From assembly GCA_016781505.1 (NCBI GenBank), contig JADDQF010000036.1:1-41298 (forward strand): a DNA stretch of 41,298 nt. The letters are read 5' to 3'. This stretch comes from a bacterium (GTDB taxonomy: Bacteria > Chloroflexota > Chloroflexia > Chloroflexales > Kallotenuaceae). The position numbers were made by a program, and so were the translations under genes. Positions 214-20,573 of the stretch are shown in pieces; position 1 is the stretch's first letter; each line of letters opens with the position of its first letter. Under the pieces are notes generated by a model. That model was not told the origin of the DNA and ran no database searches. It saw only the letters and a list, made by a program, of their open reading frames with translations.

Positions 214-2904
214 TCAACTGGATTGGTCTGCGTACTGCACGTCGGCACAATGCTCCAGGCTGAGTGCTTGACCTACTCTGGCAGCTTCGGTCTCGATGAG
301 TCGTATCTGCGACACAGCAGTACCAAACTCCGAGGATCGCCCGGCTGCCTCTAGTTCGGCACAAAGCTGCACCAGCTTGACGGCGCCGAGGTTTGCACTA
401 GCTCCTTTGTACCGATGGGCGGCCTGACGCAGTGCCTCGCCATCCCGAGCGATCAGCGCCGCCTGACACGCAGCTAGCATCTCGGGAGTCTGGCGCAGAT
501 AGCCGTCGATCAGCTGGTCCAGGAAACCGGAATCGCCCACCTCACACATTTTCCGGAGGCTCGTCATGCGCCGCGGATCCAACACAGGCTCGAGCTCTTC
601 CCTGACAGGAGCCAGCATAATCGGCTGCGACTCGTGCACCGCATGGCTGCGACTGGGTGGCAACCAGCGCTGCAGTGCTGCCCGCAGTTCGTCGGTCTCC
701 AGCGGCTTGCTAAGGTAATCATCCATACCTGCTGCGAAACAAGCCTCGCGGTCGCTCCGCATCACGCCGGCTGTCAGTGCGATGACCGGTAGACGACTCC
801 TGCCTTCCTCAGACGCGCGGATCTGCGCTGTCGCCATATAACCATCGACCTCCGGCATGTGACAGTCCATCAGCACCAACGCGTATTTCCCTGTCGCCAC
901 GGCATCGACGGCCGCCCGGCCGTTCACCACCACGTCCGCATGATATCCAAGATGTCGTAGGTTGAGCAAGGCCACCTCGACATTAATGGGGTTATCCTCT
1001 GCCAGCAGGATCAGCTGATTCGATTCATGCACGGGCCGCTGCATCGTCGGCGGCGTGCCCTCGACCTCCAGTGCTATGCCCGTTACTGCCGTCATGAGCG
1101 ATAACTGCTTCACTGGCTTGAGCAAATAATCCGCGCAGCGTGCCGAGTTAGCGAGCGCTGCAGCCTCGGACGCGTCCCAGTTTTCAAGCAGCACAATGCG
1201 TGCGCCACCGACGCCGGCCTGTTCTCGCAGATCGGCGAGGGCTGCTAGCGGATTCGCCTCAAGGAGTGTCCGCTCTATGAAGACCACCGCATATGGCTCC
1301 TGTCGTCTGCTCGCCGCCCGGGCTGCCAGCTGCGCCAACCGCAGCGACGCAGCGATGTCTACCTTCAAGCCCCAGCTTGTAAGATAGCTCTCCAGGATTT
1401 CCTGGCTCGCCCGGCTTTGGTCCACAACCAGGACCCGGCTATGACGTAGCGCTGCCAGCGCCTTCAGCCCACGAAGCTCATCCGCCATGGCCGGGGTCTC
1501 TGCCTTCGGCGCGGCGAGAGGAAAGGGAACTGAACACCAAAAGGTACTACCCTGTCCTTCTACACTTTCGACGCCGATCTCGCCGCCCATCGCTTCGACC
1601 AGACGCTTCGAAATCGCCAAGCCAAGGCCTGTCCCGCCATACTTGCGAGTTGTCGAGCTATCTGCCTGGTTGAAGGGCTGGAACAGGCACCGGGCCGCGT
1701 CGGGAGAGATGCCGATGCCGGTGTCGATAACTGCGAAACGCAACCGCGCGCTCGTCGCGCTCGTCTCGATCGCCGTGATGCGCACCTTGACCTCGCCAGC
1801 CTTGGTGAATTTGACCGCATTGCTCACCAGGTTGAGCAGCACTTGCCGTAAGCGTCCCGGATCCCCGCGCAGCAATAGTGGGACTTGGGGATCGACGTAG
1901 GTCAGCAGCAGGGTGCGCTGCTCGCGTGCCTTTCCGAGCATGAGTTCGACCGTATTTTCGACCAGGGTCCGCGGCTCGAAGTCCACAGTATCAAGATCAA
2001 GCTTGCCCGCCTCGATCTTGGAGAAGTCGAGCACGTCGGTCAGGATGTGGAGCAGGCTATGCGCCGATTCACTCACGATGCGTACATAGCGCCGCTGCTC
2101 GCCGTTCAATGACGTTTGCAGCAGAAGATTGGTCATGCCAAGCACGCCATTCATGGGCGTACGAATCTCGTGGCTCATCGTCGCCAGGAAGGCGCTCTTG
2201 AGCTTCGACATCTCGGCCTCGTGCTCCAGCTGTGGCACCTGCATGGCGCGGTAGACCAGCGCCAACGGCGAAAGGACCGGCACGATCAGCCACGGATTCA
2301 GGCTCCAGACAACCGCGATGGTATAGCCGAGCAGGCTGACCATCAACTCGACCAGCAAATTTTCGTAGTCGAGCATGCCCGAGTCACGCCAGGAAGCGCC
2401 ACGCGCCAGCATCAACACGATCGAGACAATTAACTCCGAAATCAGCACGTAGACGCCGGCTGCAGCGATGCCGGCGAAGACCGAGGCCGGCGTGTAGAAC
2501 AGCACGTGCTCCTGATCCAGGAGGCGCCAGATCGCCACCGCTGCGAAGATGCTGAGCGATTCTTTGGCGATGTTGAAGGGCTGCAGATACCAGGCGCGCA
2601 GGTGGGAGCTCCCAGATAACCGCTCGTTAGCCCATTCGATCAGCTTGGGAATCGCAATCAGCAGCAGCAACAGCAACGGCGGCAACAGGAGCGCACCTGC
2701 GAAGACAAAGGCCGGGGCAACGTAATAGGTCGTATGGTTGGGTGCTCGCACTTGCAGGAGCTGCGCGACCGTTGTCAGCACCAGCAGCACGGCCCAGGTT
2801 TCCCATGGTGCCGTCGCAGGCGTAAATTGAAGGAATGAGTGGCCCCACAGTCCTGCCAACACGATCAGCAGGGAGGCGATATAGACTCGGCCGCGCAGTG
2901 ACAT
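214..2904 (-). CDS. Membrane hybrid histidine kinase (HisKA-HATPase-REC-REC-HPt)
   Basis: This is a sensor kinase that should feed a phosphorelay. From the chosen ATG (2904, preceded by GAGGAG) it is 896 residues. Residues 1-225 hold six or seven hydrophobic segments, a membrane sensor of the MASE type with no large extracytoplasmic loop. The H-box MSHEIRTPMNG places the phospho-His near residue 245. N-box (NLVSNAVKF), G1 (DTGIGI) and G2 (GGTGLGLAI) follow to about 460. A first receiver domain (about 490-615) has Glu (FIERTL, about 544) where the phosphorylated Asp belongs. A second receiver (about 630-750) is intact, with ALVLMDCHMPEVDG (Asp about 680) and the Lys in LSKPL. The C-terminal HPt carries AAHRYKGASANLG (His about 830). 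An ATG eight codons upstream (2928) is possible but overlaps a hairpin. The gene lies 60 bp downstream of a secreted S8 peptidase on the same strand. The signal sensed is unknown. Confidence 0.93.
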   Translation of the reverse strand: MSLRGRVYIASLLIVLAGLWGHSFLQFTPATAPWETWAVLLVLTTVAQLLQVRAPNHTTYYVAPAFVFAGALLLPPLLLLLLIAIPKLIEWANERLSGSSHLRAWYLQPFNIAKESLSIFAAVAIWRLLDQEHVLFYTPASVFAGIAAAGVYVLISELIVSIVLMLARGASWRDSGMLDYENLLVELMVSLLGYTIAVVWSLNPWLIVPVLSPLALVYRAMQVPQLEHEAEMSKLKSAFLATMSHEIRTPMNGVLGMTNLLLQTSLNGEQRRYVRIVSESAHSLLHILTDVLDFSKIEAGKLDLDTVDFEPRTLVENTVELMLGKAREQRTLLLTYVDPQVPLLLRGDPGRLRQVLLNLVSNAVKFTKAGEVKVRITAIETSATSARLRFAVIDTGIGISPDAARCLFQPFNQADSSTTRKYGGTGLGLAISKRLVEAMGGEIGVESVEGQGSTFWCSVPFPLAAPKAETPAMADELRGLKALAALRHSRVLVVDQSRASQEILESYLTSWGLKVDIAASLRLAQLAARAASRRQEPYAVVFIERTLLEANPLAALADLREQAGVGGARIVLLENWDASEAAALANSARCADYLLKPVKQLSLMTAVTGIALEVEGTPPTMQRPVHESNQLILLAEDNPINVEVALLNLRHLGYHADVVVNGRAAVDAVATGKYALVLMDCHMPEVDGYMATAQIRASEEGRSRLPVIALTAGVMRSDREACFAAGMDDYLSKPLETDELRAALQRWLPPSRSHAVHESQPIMLAPVREELEPVLDPRRMTSLRKMCEVGDSGFLDQLIDGYLRQTPEMLAACQAALIARDGEALRQAAHRYKGASANLGAVKLVQLCAELEAAGRSSEFGTAVSQIRLIETEAARVGQALSLEHCADVQYADQSS

Positions 2905-2920
2905 ACCATAACTCCTCGAC

Positions 2921-2955
2921 CGGAGCACCCGACGGTAGCCAACCCGGGTGCTCCG
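2921..2955 (-). promoter_or_regulatory. 10-bp GC-rich hairpin between S8 peptidase and kinase
   Basis: CGGAGCACCC at 2921-2930 is perfectly complementary to GGGTGCTCCG at 2946-2955, with a 15-nt loop. It fills the gap between the peptidase stop and the kinase start, and ends about 16 nt before the kinase ATG, touching its ribosome binding site region. No U-run follows on either strand, so it is more likely an mRNA-stabilising, processing or attenuating element than a simple terminator. Confidence 0.5.
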
Positions 2956-2964
2956 CTGGTACGG

Positions 2965-4584
2965 CTACTCGCTCGCCGCTCCAACGCTTTGGATGCTCAT
3001 CGACGTCCAGGCGCGGGAGATGATCGATTGTGAAGTCCACGCTCGGGATGTCCAGGTTTCTAACTGACCCCAGGCACCTGAGGTCCAGCTGCGTGAGGTC
3101 CAGCTGCGTGAGGTCCAGTTGCGTGAGGTCCAACTGCCGTCGGACGTCCACGCTCGCGAATTGTAGTAGATCGGGCTGTCCGCAGCGTCCCAGAGCAACT
3201 GCGACAGCATGATGCCATCATTTGCGTTGCCCTTCTCCTCGCTGGTGATGGATGCGTAGGCGTCGAGCATTCCAGCACCTGCACCCGCGCTCGCCATCGG
3301 GCGCGCTGTCTTCATCAAGCGTGCCTTGACCTGATCGGGATTAAGCTGAGGCTCATCTGCCAACAACAGCGCGATTGAACCGGCGACAATCGGAGCAGCG
3401 ACTGAGGTTCCTGACATCCTGAAGTAGACGTTGTCCTGGACGTTGGTGGGCGACTCCTGGGCAATGACGGCGTCGGGACTGGAGAGCAGGCTAACAATGC
3501 CGCGGCCTGGCGCGACGAGATCCGGCTTGGAAAAACCGTCAATCGTGGTGCCGCGACTCGAAAAATCAGCTACGACGTCGTCGGCAGGATTGGACGTACC
3601 CCGATCGTCGGCGGCCCCCACCGTGATGACGAAGGGATCATTTGCGGGCGGGTAGATGCCGCTATTGCCCGTGTTTCCCGCTGCAACCACCACCATGATA
3701 CCGCGCATCCAGAGCAACTCCAGGGCGGCGGAGAGCGGGCTTGTATGGTACGACTCTTCCACGACGCTGTTCATCGAGAGATTCACAACGCGGATGTTAT
3801 GGCGTTGGGCGTTCTCATAGACCCACTGCAGACCATTCATCAAGTCGGACATGGTAGCCATGCCGCTGTCATCCGTCACCTTGACATTGATCACGTTAAC
3901 CATTGGCGCGACACCGGTGATTCGGCCGCCAGATGCCGTACCGTTGCCAGCCACGATGCCCGCGACATGCGTGCCATGACCAAAGCGGTCGCCGGCAGTC
4001 GTGGGACTGCGGGGAAATTCAGCGGTCACACGCAGGCGCGAATTGCGCTGAGCCGTGAACCCGAGGTCGGGGTGGTTGGCAACGCCCGAGTCGATCACTG
4101 CTACCGCGAGGCCACGTCGCGCCATGTTCGGCATCTCCTGCCAGACGCGGTCAACGCCCACCGTTTGAATGTAGGCACTTGTGATCGTCCCGGCGTCCGG
4201 GCACTTGGGGCAGGCCGAACTCACCACGGGAGCGTCCAGCGAGATCCATGCAACGCCATCCAGGCGTGCCACGACGGGAATTTGCTTCGCCGGCAGGATT
4301 GCAGCGAAGCCGTTGATCATCTCGAGCGACCGCGTGATCTGGCCGCCAAGCCGGACCACCTCGGTCTCGACAGGTTTGGCCTGCGCCACTTTGCGCACGA
4401 TCACTTGCGCCAGCACATCCGGCTGCTCGGCTGCCAACTCGAGCAAGGCAGGCTGGGCGCGCGGGATCAGGTGCGATACGGGCGCGAAGCTGATCAAGGG
4501 CACCAGCAGGGCCAACAGCACAATGGTTGTGATGCGACGCTGCCATGGCCCCATATTGGACAGTACGAACCATCGACGCTTCAT
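2965..4584 (-). CDS. Secreted S8 (subtilisin-like) serine peptidase with WTS-repeat tail
   Basis: This is an extracellular endopeptidase. The ATG at 4584 has a textbook GGAGG five bases upstream, giving 539 residues; the frame stays open for 35 more codons but those lack homology. A membrane-spanning signal segment (TTIVLLALLVPLISF, about 19-33) is followed by an I9-like propeptide region (about 50-118) ending with VAWISLDAPV. The catalytic triad is complete: Asp165 (AVIDSGV), His203 (FGHGTHVAG) and Ser394 (SGTSVAAPIVAG), with oxyanion Asn304 (AAGNTGNSG). After the domain, residues about 475-530 form a tail with eight Trp-Thr-Ser units spaced mainly by Arg/Ser, probably for surface attachment or sorting; that role is inferred. 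The kinase gene follows 60 bp downstream, suggesting co-transcription. Confidence 0.93.
   Translation of the reverse strand: MKRRWFVLSNMGPWQRRITTIVLLALLVPLISFAPVSHLIPRAQPALLELAAEQPDVLAQVIVRKVAQAKPVETEVVRLGGQITRSLEMINGFAAILPAKQIPVVARLDGVAWISLDAPVVSSACPKCPDAGTITSAYIQTVGVDRVWQEMPNMARRGLAVAVIDSGVANHPDLGFTAQRNSRLRVTAEFPRSPTTAGDRFGHGTHVAGIVAGNGTASGGRITGVAPMVNVINVKVTDDSGMATMSDLMNGLQWVYENAQRHNIRVVNLSMNSVVEESYHTSPLSAALELLWMRGIMVVVAAGNTGNSGIYPPANDPFVITVGAADDRGTSNPADDVVADFSSRGTTIDGFSKPDLVAPGRGIVSLLSSPDAVIAQESPTNVQDNVYFRMSGTSVAAPIVAGSIALLLADEPQLNPDQVKARLMKTARPMASAGAGAGMLDAYASITSEEKGNANDGIMLSQLLWDAADSPIYYNSRAWTSDGSWTSRNWTSRSWTSRSWTSGAWGQLETWTSRAWTSQSIISRAWTSMSIQSVGAASE
3080..3139 (-). repeat. 15-bp tandem repeat, four units, encoding WTS tail
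   Basis: On the plus strand four near-identical 15-mers run in direct succession (3080-3094, 3095-3109, 3110-3124, 3125-3139), with consensus GAGGTCCAGYTGCGT and changes only in the last part of the unit. On the coding (minus) strand each unit encodes five residues built around Trp-Thr-Ser. The units preserve frame, so slippage would change tail length without breaking the gene. Confidence 0.85.
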
Positions 4585-4689
4585 GCGTTCCTCCGTGGAT
4601 AGAGCAAGAGATCGCAGGCGACCTCGCTTCGGCAATGCGTTCCTCTTTGAGCGATGAAGGGCGTCTCCGAGGATCGGCTCAGTGTGCAC

Positions 4690-5414
4690 TAACCTGACGA
4701 CAGGTTTAGTCGACCAGTCGTCATGACCAGGTGGGCCCGGTGGAGCGTGAGAGAATACCGAGAACGCTACCGGTATGATCGAAGCCTACGGTATCGTGAG
4801 CAACCTAGATATAACCAATGGGTATGCCCGACGGTAGTCCAAGGGAGACCAGACGGGCATCGCAAAGTACCACTCGGAAAGCTGTAGTCTGGCGGACGAA
4901 CATCCACCGCGGTGATCGCGCACAGTCTGGTCGTCTGCGCGGTTGCCTGGCGTGCTTCGTTGTGCGTCCGCAATCTACAACGCTAGAGCCGCGCGGGGGT
5001 GTTTGAAACCATGGTCCACGACCTCCACGTGGTGATCCGCGTCGCCGACTGGCGCGCAGCCAGCCGAGCGCCGCGCTCTTCGATGGGCGAGCGGTGCTGT
5101 CGACAGCTGAGAGTGGTGAGCGAGCGGGCTATGACGGACACAAACGGCGCAAAGGCGCAAAACCCATCAGGCGGTCGACACACTTGGCCTGCTGTTGGAG
5201 GTGCATTGGCCAATACCATGTGCTAGATCCGGCTTGGATCTGGCGAGACACGTTCGAGCGTCAACCGAAAACAGCCCCGAGGACATCCTACCTGCAACCG
5301 CTTGCCTGAATTTGTTTTATTATGTTTTGTGGTGAGTCAAGCCGCTCATTGGCATAAATAGTGCACGAATCGGCACTGCTAACCCATTACCAGACTGTGA
5401 GGTGTTGCGCTCTG
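4690..5414. other. Non-coding or decayed stretch upstream of S8 peptidase
   Basis: No ORF here has a credible start, ribosome binding site and family match. Two things are visible. An inverted repeat AACCTG-acga-CAGGTT at 4691-4706 lies just upstream of the S8 peptidase and could be an operator. On the minus strand at 4869-4907 the translation reads VDVRPPDYSFPSG, which resembles the conserved PPDYSFPSGHT block of PAP2-type phosphatases, but the His and the rest of the family signature do not follow in any frame. This may be a PAP2 remnant or chance. Confidence 0.3.
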
Positions 5415-6284
5415 ATGGAACGTAATCCTACACAACAACGCCAAGCCTACCTGTGGCGCCTGCGCACGGCTTTACACCGCCAGCTTTCCGGCCTAGCCTA
5501 CGGCCTACGGCCCCAACAGCCGGCAGAAGGGTTAGAGTATATTCCCATTGCTGCCGACGCCCGCCGATCCTTTTTTCAGCGCGGCGTACCGTTGGAGGTC
5601 GATGTTTGGAATACCTTCAAGGGCAAACGGGAACGTTACTATGATGTTCTGTCGGAGCAAACCGCGGATGCTGAGCTGATTTTGCTGCAAGAGTTTCGGC
5701 ATGATCCCCTGTTAGAAATGTCGCACCGTCGCATCTTTGCCGGCCGCGATGCTGACATGGCCGTTAGCTTTTATACCCGGCCTAATTATGAGGCGCCGAC
5801 CGGAGTGTGTACTGTTTCAGCAGTTCGTTCGCTCAAGACCCTGTTTCTGCTTTCACGCTATCAAGAACCAGTCACCAAAACGCCCAAAATGGCCATCTGC
5901 ACGTATTATCCAATTGATCGACCGGATTGTCCGCCGGATGAAGCGTTGCTTGTGCTCAATAGCCATGGGATCAATTTTCGCCTACGCCGACCGTTTCTTG
6001 ACCAAATGCTCCAGTTTGAGGCGCAGCTGCGCCATCATGTCGGGCCGATTATTCTGGTTGGTGATTTCAACACGTGGGAACAAGGTCGGGTCCGTATCTT
6101 GGAAGCCGTGGCTCACAGCATTGGCCTTAAGCACATAGCGTTTCCGCAGGGCGTGAAAAGCGTGCGCGGGCATCAGCTGGATCGCGTGTATGCGCGGGGC
6201 GGAGACGCGGTGCAACAACGTGTTGTTGTTGACCCAGGAGCTTCCGATCATAGTATGCTTTCTTTCAAGTTTATAATAAGGTAG
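5415..6284 (+). CDS. Endonuclease/exonuclease/phosphatase (EEP) family protein, YafD-like
   Basis: This is a metal-dependent phosphoesterase of the DNase I-like EEP superfamily. The ATG at 5415 follows GAGGTG at about ten bases and gives 289 residues. The superfamily landmarks occur in order: an Asn block (DVWNTFKG), the metal-binding Glu (LILLQEFRHD), the Asp-x-Asn block (LVGDFNTWE), a later Asp (HQLDRVYARG) and the terminal Ser-Asp-His (GASDHSMLSF). Organisation and size resemble E. coli YafD. There is no signal peptide, so it is probably cytoplasmic. The substrate cannot be told from sequence: DNA, a phospholipid head group and a nucleotide are all used in the superfamily. It stands alone on the plus strand, with 180 bp before the next gene. 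Confidence 0.85.
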   Translation: MERNPTQQRQAYLWRLRTALHRQLSGLAYGLRPQQPAEGLEYIPIAADARRSFFQRGVPLEVDVWNTFKGKRERYYDVLSEQTADAELILLQEFRHDPLLEMSHRRIFAGRDADMAVSFYTRPNYEAPTGVCTVSAVRSLKTLFLLSRYQEPVTKTPKMAICTYYPIDRPDCPPDEALLVLNSHGINFRLRRPFLDQMLQFEAQLRHHVGPIILVGDFNTWEQGRVRILEAVAHSIGLKHIAFPQGVKSVRGHQLDRVYARGGDAVQQRVVVDPGASDHSMLSFKFIIR

Positions 6285-6467
6285 CTTGCGATCCGGTGTG
6301 CTTGGTTCAGCGGTAGCCAAGGTTTTGGGCTGGCAACTCAGCATGTTCCTTGCCGAACGGCAGCTGTGCCGCTCAAGCCTCCCGTTGCGCAGCCGGCCGC
6401 GCTCAAATCAGCAAGCCGCAGACGATCGAGTATTGTGGTGCAAAAAGACCATGCTTCATCACTAGTC

Positions 6468-6914
6468 ATGCAAGAACCGCGGGTTGTTCGTCCCTGGCCG
6501 GTCCGGGTCAGCGTTCTGCTGCTGGTGCTGGAAGGCGCCGGACTTTGCGTACTTGGCTTAGCCAACAGTGCGTGGCTCAGCTGGGCGCGCTTCGGACCCG
6601 TTGCCGGGTTACAGCCACAAGCAACGGTTGCACTTTTTATCACCGGCATCTTCACACCAGTCGGCTTGGTTGCACTGTTGGCGGCGCTAGGCATGCTTTG
6701 GCGTGTTCGGGTTAGCTGGTTGCTTGCGATGCTGGTGCAAGCCAGCAGCCTGCTCACGTCTTTGCAGCTCTACTTCACCGCAAAGCCCGGCTTTATCTTT
6801 CCAATCATGGTCTGCTCCATCGTTACCGTTTTGTATCTCAATTCCTACGAAGTTCGCGTGGTATTCCAGGCTGAGCCCCTAGCTGCCACAGTGGAGGGTC
6901 TGGATGAAGCGTGA
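6468..6914 (+). CDS. Four-TM membrane protein of unknown function
   Basis: I do not recognise this family. From the ATG at 6468 it is 148 residues and mostly hydrophobic, with four likely transmembrane helices (around residues 11-32, 45-70, 75-98 and 105-122) and a short polar C-terminus. The frame is open further upstream to 6366, but that stretch is polar and composed unlike the rest. GTG codons near 6435 are alternative starts, and no start has a strong ribosome binding site. It overlaps the start of the next gene by 11 bp, and the binding site of that gene (GGAGGG) lies inside its last codons. The two products are therefore very likely translationally coupled and may work together. Confidence 0.65.
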   Translation: MQEPRVVRPWPVRVSVLLLVLEGAGLCVLGLANSAWLSWARFGPVAGLQPQATVALFITGIFTPVGLVALLAALGMLWRVRVSWLLAMLVQASSLLTSLQLYFTAKPGFIFPIMVCSIVTVLYLNSYEVRVVFQAEPLAATVEGLDEA

Positions 6915-8739
6915 AGCCCAGCAGCAGTTATTGCAGCGCTTCGAGCCCATCCTGCGTTTCACGCGTGGCGAGCAGTTTTTTCCTATGCGGGTGGAAGATT
7001 ATGTGGCAGCCTGCAGCTTGTGGGTGCAGCCACCCGGAACAACGCCCACATGTCTTGTGCCGCAAGGCCAACTAACGCTGGAGCAACTCTCCGATCCCGC
7101 AGGCGAGTCGGCTGACGGCAGGTTGTTTCTTAAGTTTATCGAGCCGCTGACTGCTGCTGAGCTAGCGCTGTACACCTTACACAAACACCCGCCCAAGGAG
7201 GAGAGCTTTCGGGCCGGACGAGGCAGACTGGCGCGGGTCGGCTACGTTTCTCGCTTCGTCGACGCCCTGTTCTCGATCACGTTGCTGGCGCGTGGCCGAG
7301 TGCCGGGCGACCGCGCTGCGGCAGCGTCGATTGCCTACCAAAGCATCCATAAACACCATCCATGCCATAGCTACTATGGCCGAGTGCACCAAGAGAACGG
7401 CTGGATCGTGTTGCAGTATTGGTTTTTTTATGCGTTCAATAACTGGCGCTCGGGTTTTTTTGGCGGCAATGATCATGAGGGCGACTGGGAAATGATCTGC
7501 GTCTACCTGGCGCAATCTGCCAATGGCGATTTGCGCCCGGAGTGGGTTGCCTATGCCGCACACGACTACGCTGGAGATGATTTGCGGCGGCGTTGGGATG
7601 ATCCCGAGGTAGCGAAAGTGGGCGAGCATCCGGTGATCAACGTTGCGGCCGGGTCGCACGCCGGGTACTTTGCGTGCGGCGAATACCTGACCGAGCTGCA
7701 AGTCCGCTTCTTGCTCCCGCTAGCAAGAATCACCGACCGTCTGCAAGCGTTTTGGCATAAGCAGTTGCGTCAATACCGGGCCGAGCCCGCGACCAATGGA
7801 GCGCAGCGGGCATCCAACATCTTTCGCATTCCGTTTGTGGATTATGCTCGGGGTGACGGTTTGTCGATTGGGCCGGGACAGCCACATCCGTGGACCGATC
7901 CTGTCCTGCTTGAGCCTGCACCGCCGTGGGTAGCACACTACCGCGGCTTATGGGGCTTGTACACGCAGGACCCCTTTGCCGGCGAGGACGCGCCTGCCGG
8001 CCCGATGTACAACCGCGATGGCACGGTGCGGCGCTCATGGTACGACCCGGTCGGCTGGGCTGGGCTTGACAAAGTCGCGCCCAGCTCACAGGCCCTTCCT
8101 CTGGTGCAACAACAGCAGGCGGAGCTGGCACAGCGGCAGTCTGAGCTCCAGGAGCAGATCACCCTCAAGCATCGTGAACTGCAAGCCTTGGGCTTGGAGG
8201 TCGCAGCCCTGCAGGGCCAGCGGCATTTGCACAAGCTGTTTCACCGCCAAAGAGCGTATCTGACACAGCAATCGCGGGAACTCGGCCAACTGCGAGCGCA
8301 GGCAGCCGCCGACTCTGCGCTGTTGGAAGCGCTAGGCCGCTATGGCGCATCACTCCACGCCGGTGAATGCGGGCCGGCACGAGCGCATCTGCAACGTCCA
8401 CGGCAGCCCACACCACCCACCGAGCTTCGCTTCAGCCGCGTTGCAGAAACATGGGCGGCGCTCAGCGTGAGTGTCATGCTGCTTGGGTTTGTCGGCTTGG
8501 TGCTCTTTGCCCGCGACTATGTTCTGTTTGGATTAGTAGCCAGCATCACCTTGTTTGTGGTGCTTGAGGCTGGGTTCCGCGGCAGCTTGATTCGCTTTGT
8601 GACGCGCACAACCATTTGTCTTGCGATTGCAGCTGCGCTGATCATTATGTATGAATTCTTCTGGCAACTCATCATCTTTGGAGTGATTGTGGCCGGCGCG
8701 TATATTTTATGGGACAATCTGCGTGAGCTGTGGACATGA
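6904..8739 (+). CDS. Vps62-like domain protein with coiled coil and C-terminal membrane helices
   Basis: This protein has 611 residues and an ATG with GGAGGG seven bases upstream. Residues about 155-330 carry the pattern of the Vps62/DUF946 family: QYWFFYAFNNWRSGF, then NDHEGDWEMICVYL, AYAAHDYAGD, and AAGSHAGYFACGEYL, with conserved HEGDWE and SHAGYF. A further conserved-looking part (about 300-385) is rich in Trp, Pro and Gly. Residues about 400-475 are a Gln/Leu-rich coiled coil (VQQQQAELAQRQSELQEQI). Residues about 515-600 form three or so transmembrane helices, so it is anchored by its C-terminus. The role of bacterial Vps62-like proteins is not well known, and no enzyme activity can be assigned. 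It overlaps and is coupled to the 4-TM protein upstream. Confidence 0.8.
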   Translation: MKREAQQQLLQRFEPILRFTRGEQFFPMRVEDYVAACSLWVQPPGTTPTCLVPQGQLTLEQLSDPAGESADGRLFLKFIEPLTAAELALYTLHKHPPKEESFRAGRGRLARVGYVSRFVDALFSITLLARGRVPGDRAAAASIAYQSIHKHHPCHSYYGRVHQENGWIVLQYWFFYAFNNWRSGFFGGNDHEGDWEMICVYLAQSANGDLRPEWVAYAAHDYAGDDLRRRWDDPEVAKVGEHPVINVAAGSHAGYFACGEYLTELQVRFLLPLARITDRLQAFWHKQLRQYRAEPATNGAQRASNIFRIPFVDYARGDGLSIGPGQPHPWTDPVLLEPAPPWVAHYRGLWGLYTQDPFAGEDAPAGPMYNRDGTVRRSWYDPVGWAGLDKVAPSSQALPLVQQQQAELAQRQSELQEQITLKHRELQALGLEVAALQGQRHLHKLFHRQRAYLTQQSRELGQLRAQAAADSALLEALGRYGASLHAGECGPARAHLQRPRQPTPPTELRFSRVAETWAALSVSVMLLGFVGLVLFARDYVLFGLVASITLFVVLEAGFRGSLIRFVTRTTICLAIAAALIIMYEFFWQLIIFGVIVAGAYILWDNLRELWT

Positions 8740-17603: not shown

Positions 17604-17632
17604 CCTCCTGGTCAGGCAAAGTGACCAGGAGG
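17604..17632 (-). terminator. Rho-independent terminator of double-subtilase gene
   Basis: CCTCCTGGTCA (17604-17614) and TGACCAGGAGG (17622-17632) are perfect 11-bp arms with a 7-nt loop. On the minus strand the stem is directly followed by TTTTGTT. It lies 65 bp past the stop of the S8 gene at 17697. Confidence 0.88.
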
Positions 17633-17696: not shown

Positions 17697-20444
17697 TTAG
17701 CGTCCACAGTAAATGTACGGGTCGGCCAGCTCCATCCAGCTCTCGCTCTCGATGATGACTTTATCCCAGTACGCGTGACGCGCCTCGATCAGCTTGGTCA
17801 TGTACTCGCAGGCCAACGCGTCCTTCGTCCGCGTCACTTGGCCGCGAATGCCTAACTGGGCCAGTGTTTGGGAGATGACTTCATGCTCAGGCGCCGGCGT
17901 GATGACGCCCCAACCCACCTGGCCCCACGGCGCGGGATCCAGGACCGGCGTCGAGGTCAGATCGTAGGTGCCTCCACCGGCCGTGTAATCATAAATTGTC
18001 GGGTAGTACGCCGCTTCTTCCAGCGCCCGGCGCAGCTGCCAGTTCGAAACGACGCGGCCCTGACCTTGCGCCATCACCGGAACATTGTTCACTGTGGCTA
18101 TGCCGCCGGTATGGCCAAGCACTCGGCGTGTTTCCAGCAGGGCTTTGGACATAGTTCCGGCGCTGCGGGGCGTTGCAAAGCTCGTCCCTGATACTGAGCG
18201 CATCCCGGTCTCACAGTCGAAGCAGTAGGGCAGCGTTTGCGTAAAGTCGGCGGCAAAGTCGGCCAGCGATCCGCTCAACACCTGCTTGCCTTCGCTTGTC
18301 TCTTCTTGGAAGCCGGCAACGCCAATACTCCACCATGGCCCAGCCGTACTGTCTTGTACCGTGGTTGAAGGACTGTTATCAGCAGCTCCGAAGTGGAGCT
18401 TGCCATTCCGGACCACGCCTACATAGCTGTTTTCGATGTGATACGGTAGTGGAATGCTGCCAATCGGACCATAGCTCGTCGATACAATATCCACCTGCGG
18501 ATGATTGAAGGCAAATGTTTCCGATTCGTCGGTGATGCCTTCCACAAACAAGATGATTGCATCCGGATTGGCGCGGACGACGGCGGCTGCGGTTCCAACG
18601 CCATGCGTATCAGCCGAGTCGTCGGGCAGAATTGGCCGGGTACCGCCATCGTAGGAGACGGCGATGATGTTGGTCCCACGGAACCAGTACAGCTCACCCG
18701 GATTGATCCGGTCCCAGATCGCGGCCTTATCCGCAGCATAGTCAGCCGCAAAATTGCCCGTCCGCGTCAGGTCAAGGATATGACTTTCATCAATGCCAAA
18801 GGCGGTCAAGACTTCCGGTGTGACACTGGAAGGCGCTTGCGTCGCATACGGCTCCCCGCCAACATTGAAGAAATCATGGTACGGATTGATGGCAGAGTCA
18901 ATCACACTCACGGTCACACGTGGAGCTGGAGGTGGCGTGCACGGATTTTTGTGATTGCACTTCTTAATTTTAGGCGAGCTTGTCGGCGCTGTTCCAACCA
19001 GCGCAAAGGCTTCGGTTACGGCATCATACGCGTTCACAAAACCAGCGCCTACTTCCCAGGCTTCGTAGCCGGGCATCATATCCGCGGTGCCCTCGACGAT
19101 TGCTTTCACCTGGGCGGGCGTTAAGTTCGGGTTGGCATCCAACAACAGGGCCACAATACCGGCCACGTGCGGAGCAGCCATCGAGGTTCCGCTCAAAGTT
19201 GTGTAGTACGGCAGATGCTCTGGCGCGATGTTGATATCTTTTGCCGCCGACAAGGGTGACAGGGAGCTGCCCGTAGCGCGCGTGGAGATAATGTTGACGC
19301 CAGGCGCGGTAACAGTCGGGCGATCTTCCGAGACAAAGGTCTCACCGCTCTGGCTCGTTACCGTGACCATCTTATCTTTGACACCACGCGATGAAAAGTT
19401 TGCTAAAGCACGGTTCTTGTCGGCTGCCGCAACGGTAATCACCCACGGAGCCTTCTTGTAGTTGCCCGTAATCGTGCCGGCACCAGGCCCGGAGTTGCCG
19501 GCGGAAAAGACGACGACGACGCCCTGATCATTGAGGAGCTTGCTCGCAACGTTGGTGGGATGGTCGGGATTGAAGTCGCCTTTGTCGCTGGTTGAGCCCC
19601 ACGAGTTGGTAATCACGCGAATGTTGTACCGCTCCCGATTCGTGAGCGCGTAGTCGAAGCCGCCCAGGGTATTGAGCAACAGGAGACCGGCTCCCGAACC
19701 GAAGGCGACGATATTGGCTTTGGGAGCGACGCCTTCATACAAACCATCCGACAGGCTACCTGTTCCAGCAACGATACCGGCGACATGCGTACCGTGTCCG
19801 CCCCCAACATCGGTGTTTTCGACGCCTTCCACATACGTCACCGGGAGCAATTCCGACTCATCGGCCAGGTTGATGCCCCCAAATACATTCTGGACGATGC
19901 GGGGATCAATGTCGGCGTGCAGGCCATCGACGCCGGAGTCGTTCACGAGCACAGTCACGCCTGTTCCGGCAACGGGAACTCCGCTATTTTTCCGGGTCAT
20001 CTCGGCATCGCCACGTACCCGGTCAACACCCGTTAAGGCTGTGCCGTCCGCGTTGTCGTATTCCAGTTTCTCATTCAGCCAGATGGAACGTACTTCTGGC
20101 CGTGCAGCAAGCGCCTTCACTTGCACGCTGGTAGCTACCATGCCAGCCATCGGTAGTGCCTGGAACAGTTTGCCTCCGATGATGCCAACTTGTTTCAGCG
20201 CCGCGACATCAACGGCGGTTGGAGCCGCTGTGCCACGGAACGTCACAATGACCTCAAAAGGCCCAACGCCAGCGTCCATCGCAGAGACCAAACTTGGACC
20301 GAGAACAGCCGAGCCACTAGCTGCTTGTGCCCTTGATGCGAGGTTGGGTGCGCCAACAAGCGACAGGAGCAGAGCAAAGACCACAAAGAGTGTACCTACC
20401 GCGCGCGTGCCACTTCGACCGTGTGCTCGTCCCATGGATTCCAT
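17697..20444 (-). CDS. Secreted subtilase with two S8 catalytic domains in tandem
   Basis: This protein has 915 residues and is exported: a basic N-terminus and hydrophobic core (TLFVVFALLLSLV, about 18-30) end near ASRAQA. An I9-like pro-region (about 60-130) follows. The first S8 domain (about 155-475) is complete: Asp169 (LVNDSGVDG), His217 (GGGHGTHVAG), Asn317 (FSAGNSGPG) and Ser421 (SGTSMAAPHVAG). A Lys/Cys/Pro linker (KIKKCNHKNPCTPPPAP, about 492-508) leads to a second domain (about 509-830) that again offers a triad in order: Asp516 (SVIDSAINP), His614 (DTHGVGTAAAVV), Asn690 (GAADNSP) and Ser755 (SGTSFATPRSAG). The second is diverged and may have other specificity. The ATG at 20444 is only two bases from AAGGAG; the ATG at 20435 is an alternative. 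It has its own promoter and terminator. Confidence 0.92.
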   Translation of the reverse strand: MESMGRAHGRSGTRAVGTLFVVFALLLSLVGAPNLASRAQAASGSAVLGPSLVSAMDAGVGPFEVIVTFRGTAAPTAVDVAALKQVGIIGGKLFQALPMAGMVATSVQVKALAARPEVRSIWLNEKLEYDNADGTALTGVDRVRGDAEMTRKNSGVPVAGTGVTVLVNDSGVDGLHADIDPRIVQNVFGGINLADESELLPVTYVEGVENTDVGGGHGTHVAGIVAGTGSLSDGLYEGVAPKANIVAFGSGAGLLLLNTLGGFDYALTNRERYNIRVITNSWGSTSDKGDFNPDHPTNVASKLLNDQGVVVVFSAGNSGPGAGTITGNYKKAPWVITVAAADKNRALANFSSRGVKDKMVTVTSQSGETFVSEDRPTVTAPGVNIISTRATGSSLSPLSAAKDINIAPEHLPYYTTLSGTSMAAPHVAGIVALLLDANPNLTPAQVKAIVEGTADMMPGYEAWEVGAGFVNAYDAVTEAFALVGTAPTSSPKIKKCNHKNPCTPPPAPRVTVSVIDSAINPYHDFFNVGGEPYATQAPSSVTPEVLTAFGIDESHILDLTRTGNFAADYAADKAAIWDRINPGELYWFRGTNIIAVSYDGGTRPILPDDSADTHGVGTAAAVVRANPDAIILFVEGITDESETFAFNHPQVDIVSTSYGPIGSIPLPYHIENSYVGVVRNGKLHFGAADNSPSTTVQDSTAGPWWSIGVAGFQEETSEGKQVLSGSLADFAADFTQTLPYCFDCETGMRSVSGTSFATPRSAGTMSKALLETRRVLGHTGGIATVNNVPVMAQGQGRVVSNWQLRRALEEAAYYPTIYDYTAGGGTYDLTSTPVLDPAPWGQVGWGVITPAPEHEVISQTLAQLGIRGQVTRTKDALACEYMTKLIEARHAYWDKVIIESESWMELADPYIYCGR

Positions 20445-20544
20445 GACTCCTTAACTTGGACCTGATTGCCTTGATTGGGCGGACGTACTCGTGAGCTAGT
20501 TCTGAACACCCCACCACTCATTGTGGTGGCAATCCTCTTGTCTA

Positions 20545-20573
20545 ATTCTATACACCCTTTAGCGTGGTGTCAA
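20545..20573 (-). promoter_or_regulatory. Consensus-like sigma70 promoter for double-subtilase gene
   Basis: On the minus strand TTGACA (20573-20568) and TAGAAT (20550-20545) are separated by exactly 17 bases. The -35 is perfect and the -10 matches five of six. The leader would be about 95 nt and contains a small hairpin (CCACCAC at 20511-20517 with GTGGTGG at 20523-20529). This gives the S8 gene a promoter separate from rtcB. Confidence 0.75.

Follow-up and report, generated by a model that had tools for sequence, protein, structure and literature searches.

A Chloroflexota gene for a predicted secreted protease with two subtilisin heads of different S8 subfamilies

In human polyserases, tandem serine protease domains are carried by one polypeptide (PMC1435904). 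The closest described arrangement among subtilases is that of Clostridioides difficile, in which CspB and the pseudoprotease CspA are synthesized as one fused protein, from which interdomain processing by YabG liberates CspB (PMC6636752, PMC10681294). In the literature searched, from which most subscription journals are absent, we found no protein combining two intact subtilisin heads of different subfamilies, and natural proteins of this type seem rare. Here we describe a gene of this kind, situated in a window (the whole stretch of DNA that was analysed) of 41,298 nucleotides from a Chloroflexota genome, and we compare its two heads, called D1 and D2, with their stand-alone relatives.

One reading frame for two heads

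The gene is a single ATG-started open reading frame, in frame over all its 915 codons, and it has the strand and length given by a previous sequence-only reading, whose residue numbers D169, H217, S421, D516, H614, N690 and S755 were all correct. The features of the locus are collected in Table 1. The predicted signal peptide, recognized by eye, presents an Arg-containing start, a hydrophobic core GTLFVVFALLLSLVGA and an AxA site. It is followed by the putative propeptide of D1 (EVIVTFRG..LPMAGMVATSVQVKALAARPEVRSIWLN), which is also found in the congeneric stand-alone homologue of D1 (L017) and for which the Pfam I9 model gave no match at E<=1; no propeptide was detected for D2. D1 displays in the order D169/H217/N317/S421 the canonical S8 triad and oxyanion Asn. 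The linker between the heads has a GC3 of 0.45, versus 0.63-0.67 in the domains on either side.

Table 1. Features of the two-headed subtilase locus
Feature	Positions	Strand	Basis
Promoter-like site TTGACA-17-TAGAAT, 11/12	20545..20573	-	consensus match only; site number close to chance
Two-headed subtilase gene, 915 aa, stop codon included	17697..20444	-	single ORF, ATG
Sec-type signal peptide, aa 1 to ~42, ..ASRAQA/ASG	20319..20444	-	judged by eye
Probable I9-like propeptide of D1, aa ~43-150	19995..20318	-	judged by eye
D1, canonical S8 domain, aa 160-455	19080..19967	-	PF00082 E 2.1e-48; coordinates reproduced in a second scan
D1 catalytic Asp169	19938..19940	-	residue position check
D1 catalytic His217 (HGTHVAG)	19794..19796	-	residue position check
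D1 oxyanion Asn317 (SAGNSGP)	19494..19496	-	residue position check
D1 catalytic Ser421 (GTSMAAP)	19182..19184	-	residue position check
Interdomain linker, aa 478-508, Lys/Cys/Pro-rich	18921..19013	-	sequence; GC3
D2, aa ~510-765, divergent S8 domain of the SAINPYH subfamily, long insertion separating Asp from His	18150..18917	-	PF00082; family conservation; profile match
D2 catalytic Asp516 (VIDSAINPYH)	18897..18899	-	invariant in 8 sequences
D2 catalytic His614 (DTHGVGT)	18603..18605	-	invariant in 8 sequences
D2 oxyanion Asn690 (GAADNSP)	18375..18377	-	invariant in 8; aligned with D1 Asn317
D2 catalytic Ser755 (SVSGTSFATP)	18180..18182	-	invariant in 8; aligned with D1 Ser421
C-terminal extension of D2, aa 766-915	17700..18149	-	multiple alignment
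Terminator-like hairpin, 11-bp stem then TTTTGTT, after D2 stop	17604..17632	-	-24.8 kcal/mol, z -4.6

The two heads are bracketed by one promoter-like site, some 100 nt ahead of the start codon, and one terminator-like hairpin, which a simple consensus scan does not list. Another hairpin is present in the likely 5' leader (20495-20540, minus strand, -15.8 kcal/mol, z -3.0).

D2 as an S8 domain

The sequence-only reading had proposed to scan the two halves separately with PF00082, and both were matched: D1 above the cut-off with an E of 4.5e-45, and D2 by a marginal pass, with an E of 9.6e-5 and 22.3 bits versus a curated cut-off of 21.8. Scanned singly, all the D2-family members (8/8) matched this model at E<=1, the best with an E of 6.9e-9. 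The alignment of the window D2 with seven relatives, which are 48-54% identical to it in this multiple alignment and 43-51% when the best segment, covering most of D2, is taken, showed no variation at D516, H614, N690 and S755 in any of the eight sequences. The homology with these relatives includes the C-terminal extension, which is conserved in the subfamily with the motifs NWxLRRA, P..PW.Q.GWG and C[ED][YF]xT, and the subfamily as a whole can be recognized by the signature SAINPYH / HGVGT / K-L-H-F-x(4)-N / GTSFxTP. The catalytic surroundings of D2 are unlike those of D1, as they present HGVGT, GTSFATP, a long insertion, a PYCxDC motif ahead of the nucleophile and the C-terminal extension.

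Global alignment of the family profiles of D2 (13 sequences) and D1 gave a probability of 98.8% and an E of 8.9e-16, and it superposed D516/N690/S755 on D169/N317/S421. Family profiles were needed on both sides, since hhalign of the D2 profile versus the single D1 sequence returned a spurious segment only. His614 was left out of register because of the long insertion of D2, in which Asp and His are separated by 97 residues, versus 47 in D1; its assignment comes from the family alignments and from the DDDGHGTGSSS motif of the broader D2 family. At the structural level, the AF2 model of D2 built from eight sequences was of moderate quality (pLDDT 57.9, pTM 0.67) with a poor second half, and the one built from the single sequence had a pLDDT of 33. 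Foldseek with the moderate model returned subtilases for 17 of the 17 best PDB matches, but with low TM-scores (0.21-0.30). Searches of PDB sequences with D2 gave no significant relative, and in NCBIfam no model exceeded its cut-off for the D2 subfamily; this sparse group of S8 peptidases merits a family model of its own.

Together, Pfam, family conservation and profile alignment support, at the level of sequence, that D2 is a genuine S8 domain with a complete catalytic set. The claim of two complete S8 sets in one predicted secreted protein is thereby upheld, as is the candidate role of N690 in the oxyanion hole, and both heads are probably active.

Distribution of the two heads and origin of the fusion

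No D2 was detected in 60 near relatives, and a search with its family profile found it absent from the 157 other genomes of the class, which makes one genome out of 158; plasmid records gave no match to D2 either. A sample of 400 genomes of the phylum yielded one further match with 35% identity, which led to a wider family in another class. In the class of genome G405, also from Chloroflexota, six loci (L002-L007) represent a more deeply branching part of the D2 family and encode large single-S8 proteins, with open frames of 863-1315 aa and N-terminal regions that are PKD/PPC-like where tested. A scan of the whole collection gave no match with D2 alone and recovered relatives with a two-sequence alignment of D2 and L008: seven stand-alone proteins (L009-L015), four of them from Pseudomonadota (Sinimarinibacterium, Oceanococcus, Abyssibacter and Salinisphaerales), one from Chloroflexota (L012, the same protein as in genome G473, which is listed under the phylum of the window), one from Actinomycetota and one from an unassigned bacterium. 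In the tree, the window D2 is placed beside the actinomycetotal sequence with moderate support (86/82). These relatives have their own signal peptide, a single S8 domain and mostly a PPC-like N-terminal region, the Pfam PPC match in L008 being below the cut-off; the window D2 has neither the signal peptide nor the PPC-like region and is placed behind D1.

The closest kin of D1 is a stand-alone protein of 487 aa in a genome of the same genus (L017 in G003), with about 60% identity and the same layout of signal peptide, propeptide and S8 domain, which ends where D1 ends. D1, L017 and L038 form one clade with a support of 100/100. L038 belongs to the gammaproteobacterium Sinimarinibacterium flocculans (G627), which possesses a D1-like (48%) and a D2-like (49%, L009) protease, encoded by two genes on different contigs, the D1-like protein grouping with the window D1. 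Two D1-like proteins of 860 and 902 aa, from Sinimarinibacterium and Oceanococcus, were considered as further fusions and rejected, as they do not contain D2. A decayed D2 was looked for downstream of the congeneric stand-alone D1 and was not found. The genome itself has 14 S8 matches in all, among which no other tandem was seen; the window contains a second subtilase gene, single-domain, at 2965-4689 on the minus strand. These counts, together with the presence of D2 in a single genome of the class, agree with the previous opinion that tandem S8 proteins are rare; CspBA is a published precedent.

The sequence-only reading saw in D2 a diverged copy of D1, and the presence of both S8 domains in one chain would indeed fit an internal tandem duplication that diverged in place. 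This origin is hardly conceivable and we rejected it: the D1-D2 pairwise score of 42 is not significant versus a shuffled mean of 39, the nearest kin of D1 is single-domain, and D2 groups with the stand-alone SAINPYH family, whose members in other phyla are 48-54% identical to it. Because of these stand-alone homologues, the gene is to be understood as a fusion, and D2 is, judged by its sequence, a separate S8 subfamily. The fusion was found in one instance only and in a draft genome of 159 contigs, so we had to consider that two adjacent genes, or DNA of two organisms, were joined by mistake in assembly or sequencing, but we find this very unlikely. A stop codon lost between two intact neighbours would have left the signal peptide of D2 in place, and neither this peptide nor the PPC-like region is there, so that such a loss does not explain the gene. 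A chimeric contig is improbable as well, since GC3 and codon use of D2 resemble those of D1 and of the neighbouring genes, and a congener has a homologue, 78% identical, of the aldo-keto reductase gene located 186 bp beyond the end of D2; the 915 codons in frame also argue against an artefact.

A last alternative concerns function: D2, intact in sequence, might mainly serve D1 as a partner for regulation, binding or targeting, comparable to a pseudoprotease, as CspA is beside CspB. The processed CspB-CspA fusion provides a precedent (PMC6636752, PMC10681294), and the insertion and the long conserved C-terminal extension of D2, both missing from D1, might serve such a role. CspA, however, has lost catalytic residues, whereas D2 keeps four out of four, invariant in eight sequences of about 50% identity, and the relatives of D2 occur singly, with no second S8 domain. 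We thus consider a mainly non-catalytic D2 unlikely.

A proposed two-headed endopeptidase and its known counterparts

It is fairly likely, in our opinion, that the product of the gene is a secreted serine endopeptidase with two heads, which arose when a native subtilase gene was fused to a catalytic domain of the SAINPYH subfamily. The simplest history would be the acquisition of a SAINPYH-type gene, for which we infer horizontal transfer, followed by its fusion behind the native gene. A Chloroflexota subtilase gene, coding for a canonical S8 domain behind a signal peptide and an I9-like propeptide, would have lost its stop codon, and the short Lys/Cys/Pro linker would have joined it to the catalytic domain of what is normally a stand-alone secreted enzyme, scattered across phyla. 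The fusion is apparently lineage-specific, combining a native protease gene with the protease gene of another lineage; as a single instance, it could also have arisen recently and have no function under selection. A single promoter would transcribe both heads and the signal peptide of D1 would export D2 too, which would depend on D1 for export since it has no such peptide of its own, while the propeptide of D1 would chaperone D1. As both heads keep every sequence feature needed by a subtilisin, extracellular proteolysis with two specificities is the likeliest function: two working sites, presumably of different specificity, would attack extracellular protein. Cleavage of the linker, by D1 itself or by another S8 protease of the genome, is plausible and could free both heads outside the cell; D2 might also act on D1, as the sequence-only reading suggested. 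If both heads work, the protein becomes a test case for the folding and maturation of two proteases with one propeptide and one export signal between them, and for any cooperation of the uncharacterised SAINPYH subfamily with canonical subtilases.

The neighbourhood of stand-alone D2-family genes bears on such a cooperation. Among the 10 stand-alone loci with readable upstream DNA, three have a Pfam-confirmed canonical S8 gene as the immediate upstream neighbour of the D2-family gene, on the same strand: L011 (292-3405 with 3482-5254), L044 (8092-9666 with 4330-8088) and L045 (4411-6048 with 681-4625). They represent two lineages, L044 and L045 belonging to one genus, and their gene order is the order of the heads in the window fusion; in L047, the S8 gene is downstream of the D2-family gene. 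Divergent S8 neighbours may have escaped detection in the remaining loci. S8 genes often cluster, as on contig C80 of the window's own genome, which carries two of them, or in the S8A gene cluster of Kangiella (PMC6000758), and this weakens the evidence from neighbours, which faintly suggests a functional link between canonical S8 and D2-family genes. It is a tentative and rather doubtful proposal that the two types of subtilases constitute a functional pair, whose genes are neighbours in certain lineages and have become one in the window. On a substrate common to both, one head would process or complement the other. Were it true, this pairing would be brought to light by the fusion seen in the window gene.

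Four known systems frame this gene. Polyserases offer a working analogy only, because they are chymotrypsin-type enzymes with a fold unrelated to that of subtilases. CspBA (NCBIfam NF040809) is more similar, with two S8-type domains per chain whose relatives make single proteins, although the window protein scores 33.2 bits versus a cut-off of 1250 for this model and does not belong to the CspBA family. It also differs in that its second domain keeps the triad and oxyanion Asn, where CspA has lost catalytic residues, in that its heads come from different S8 subfamilies, and in being a Chloroflexota enzyme predicted to be secreted. Finally, each head has its own single-domain counterpart. The S8A subtilase L017 of the same genus shares the layout of D1 but ends right after it, and the SAINPYH-type peptidases, such as that of Sinimarinibacterium flocculans, share with D2 the domain, the catalytic residues and the C-terminal extension, but they are one-S8 proteins that have a signal peptide of their own and, in most cases, a PPC-like region, where the window D2 is fused behind D1. 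Tandem serine proteases are thus already known, and what is new here is that one protein combines intact heads of two different S8 subfamilies.
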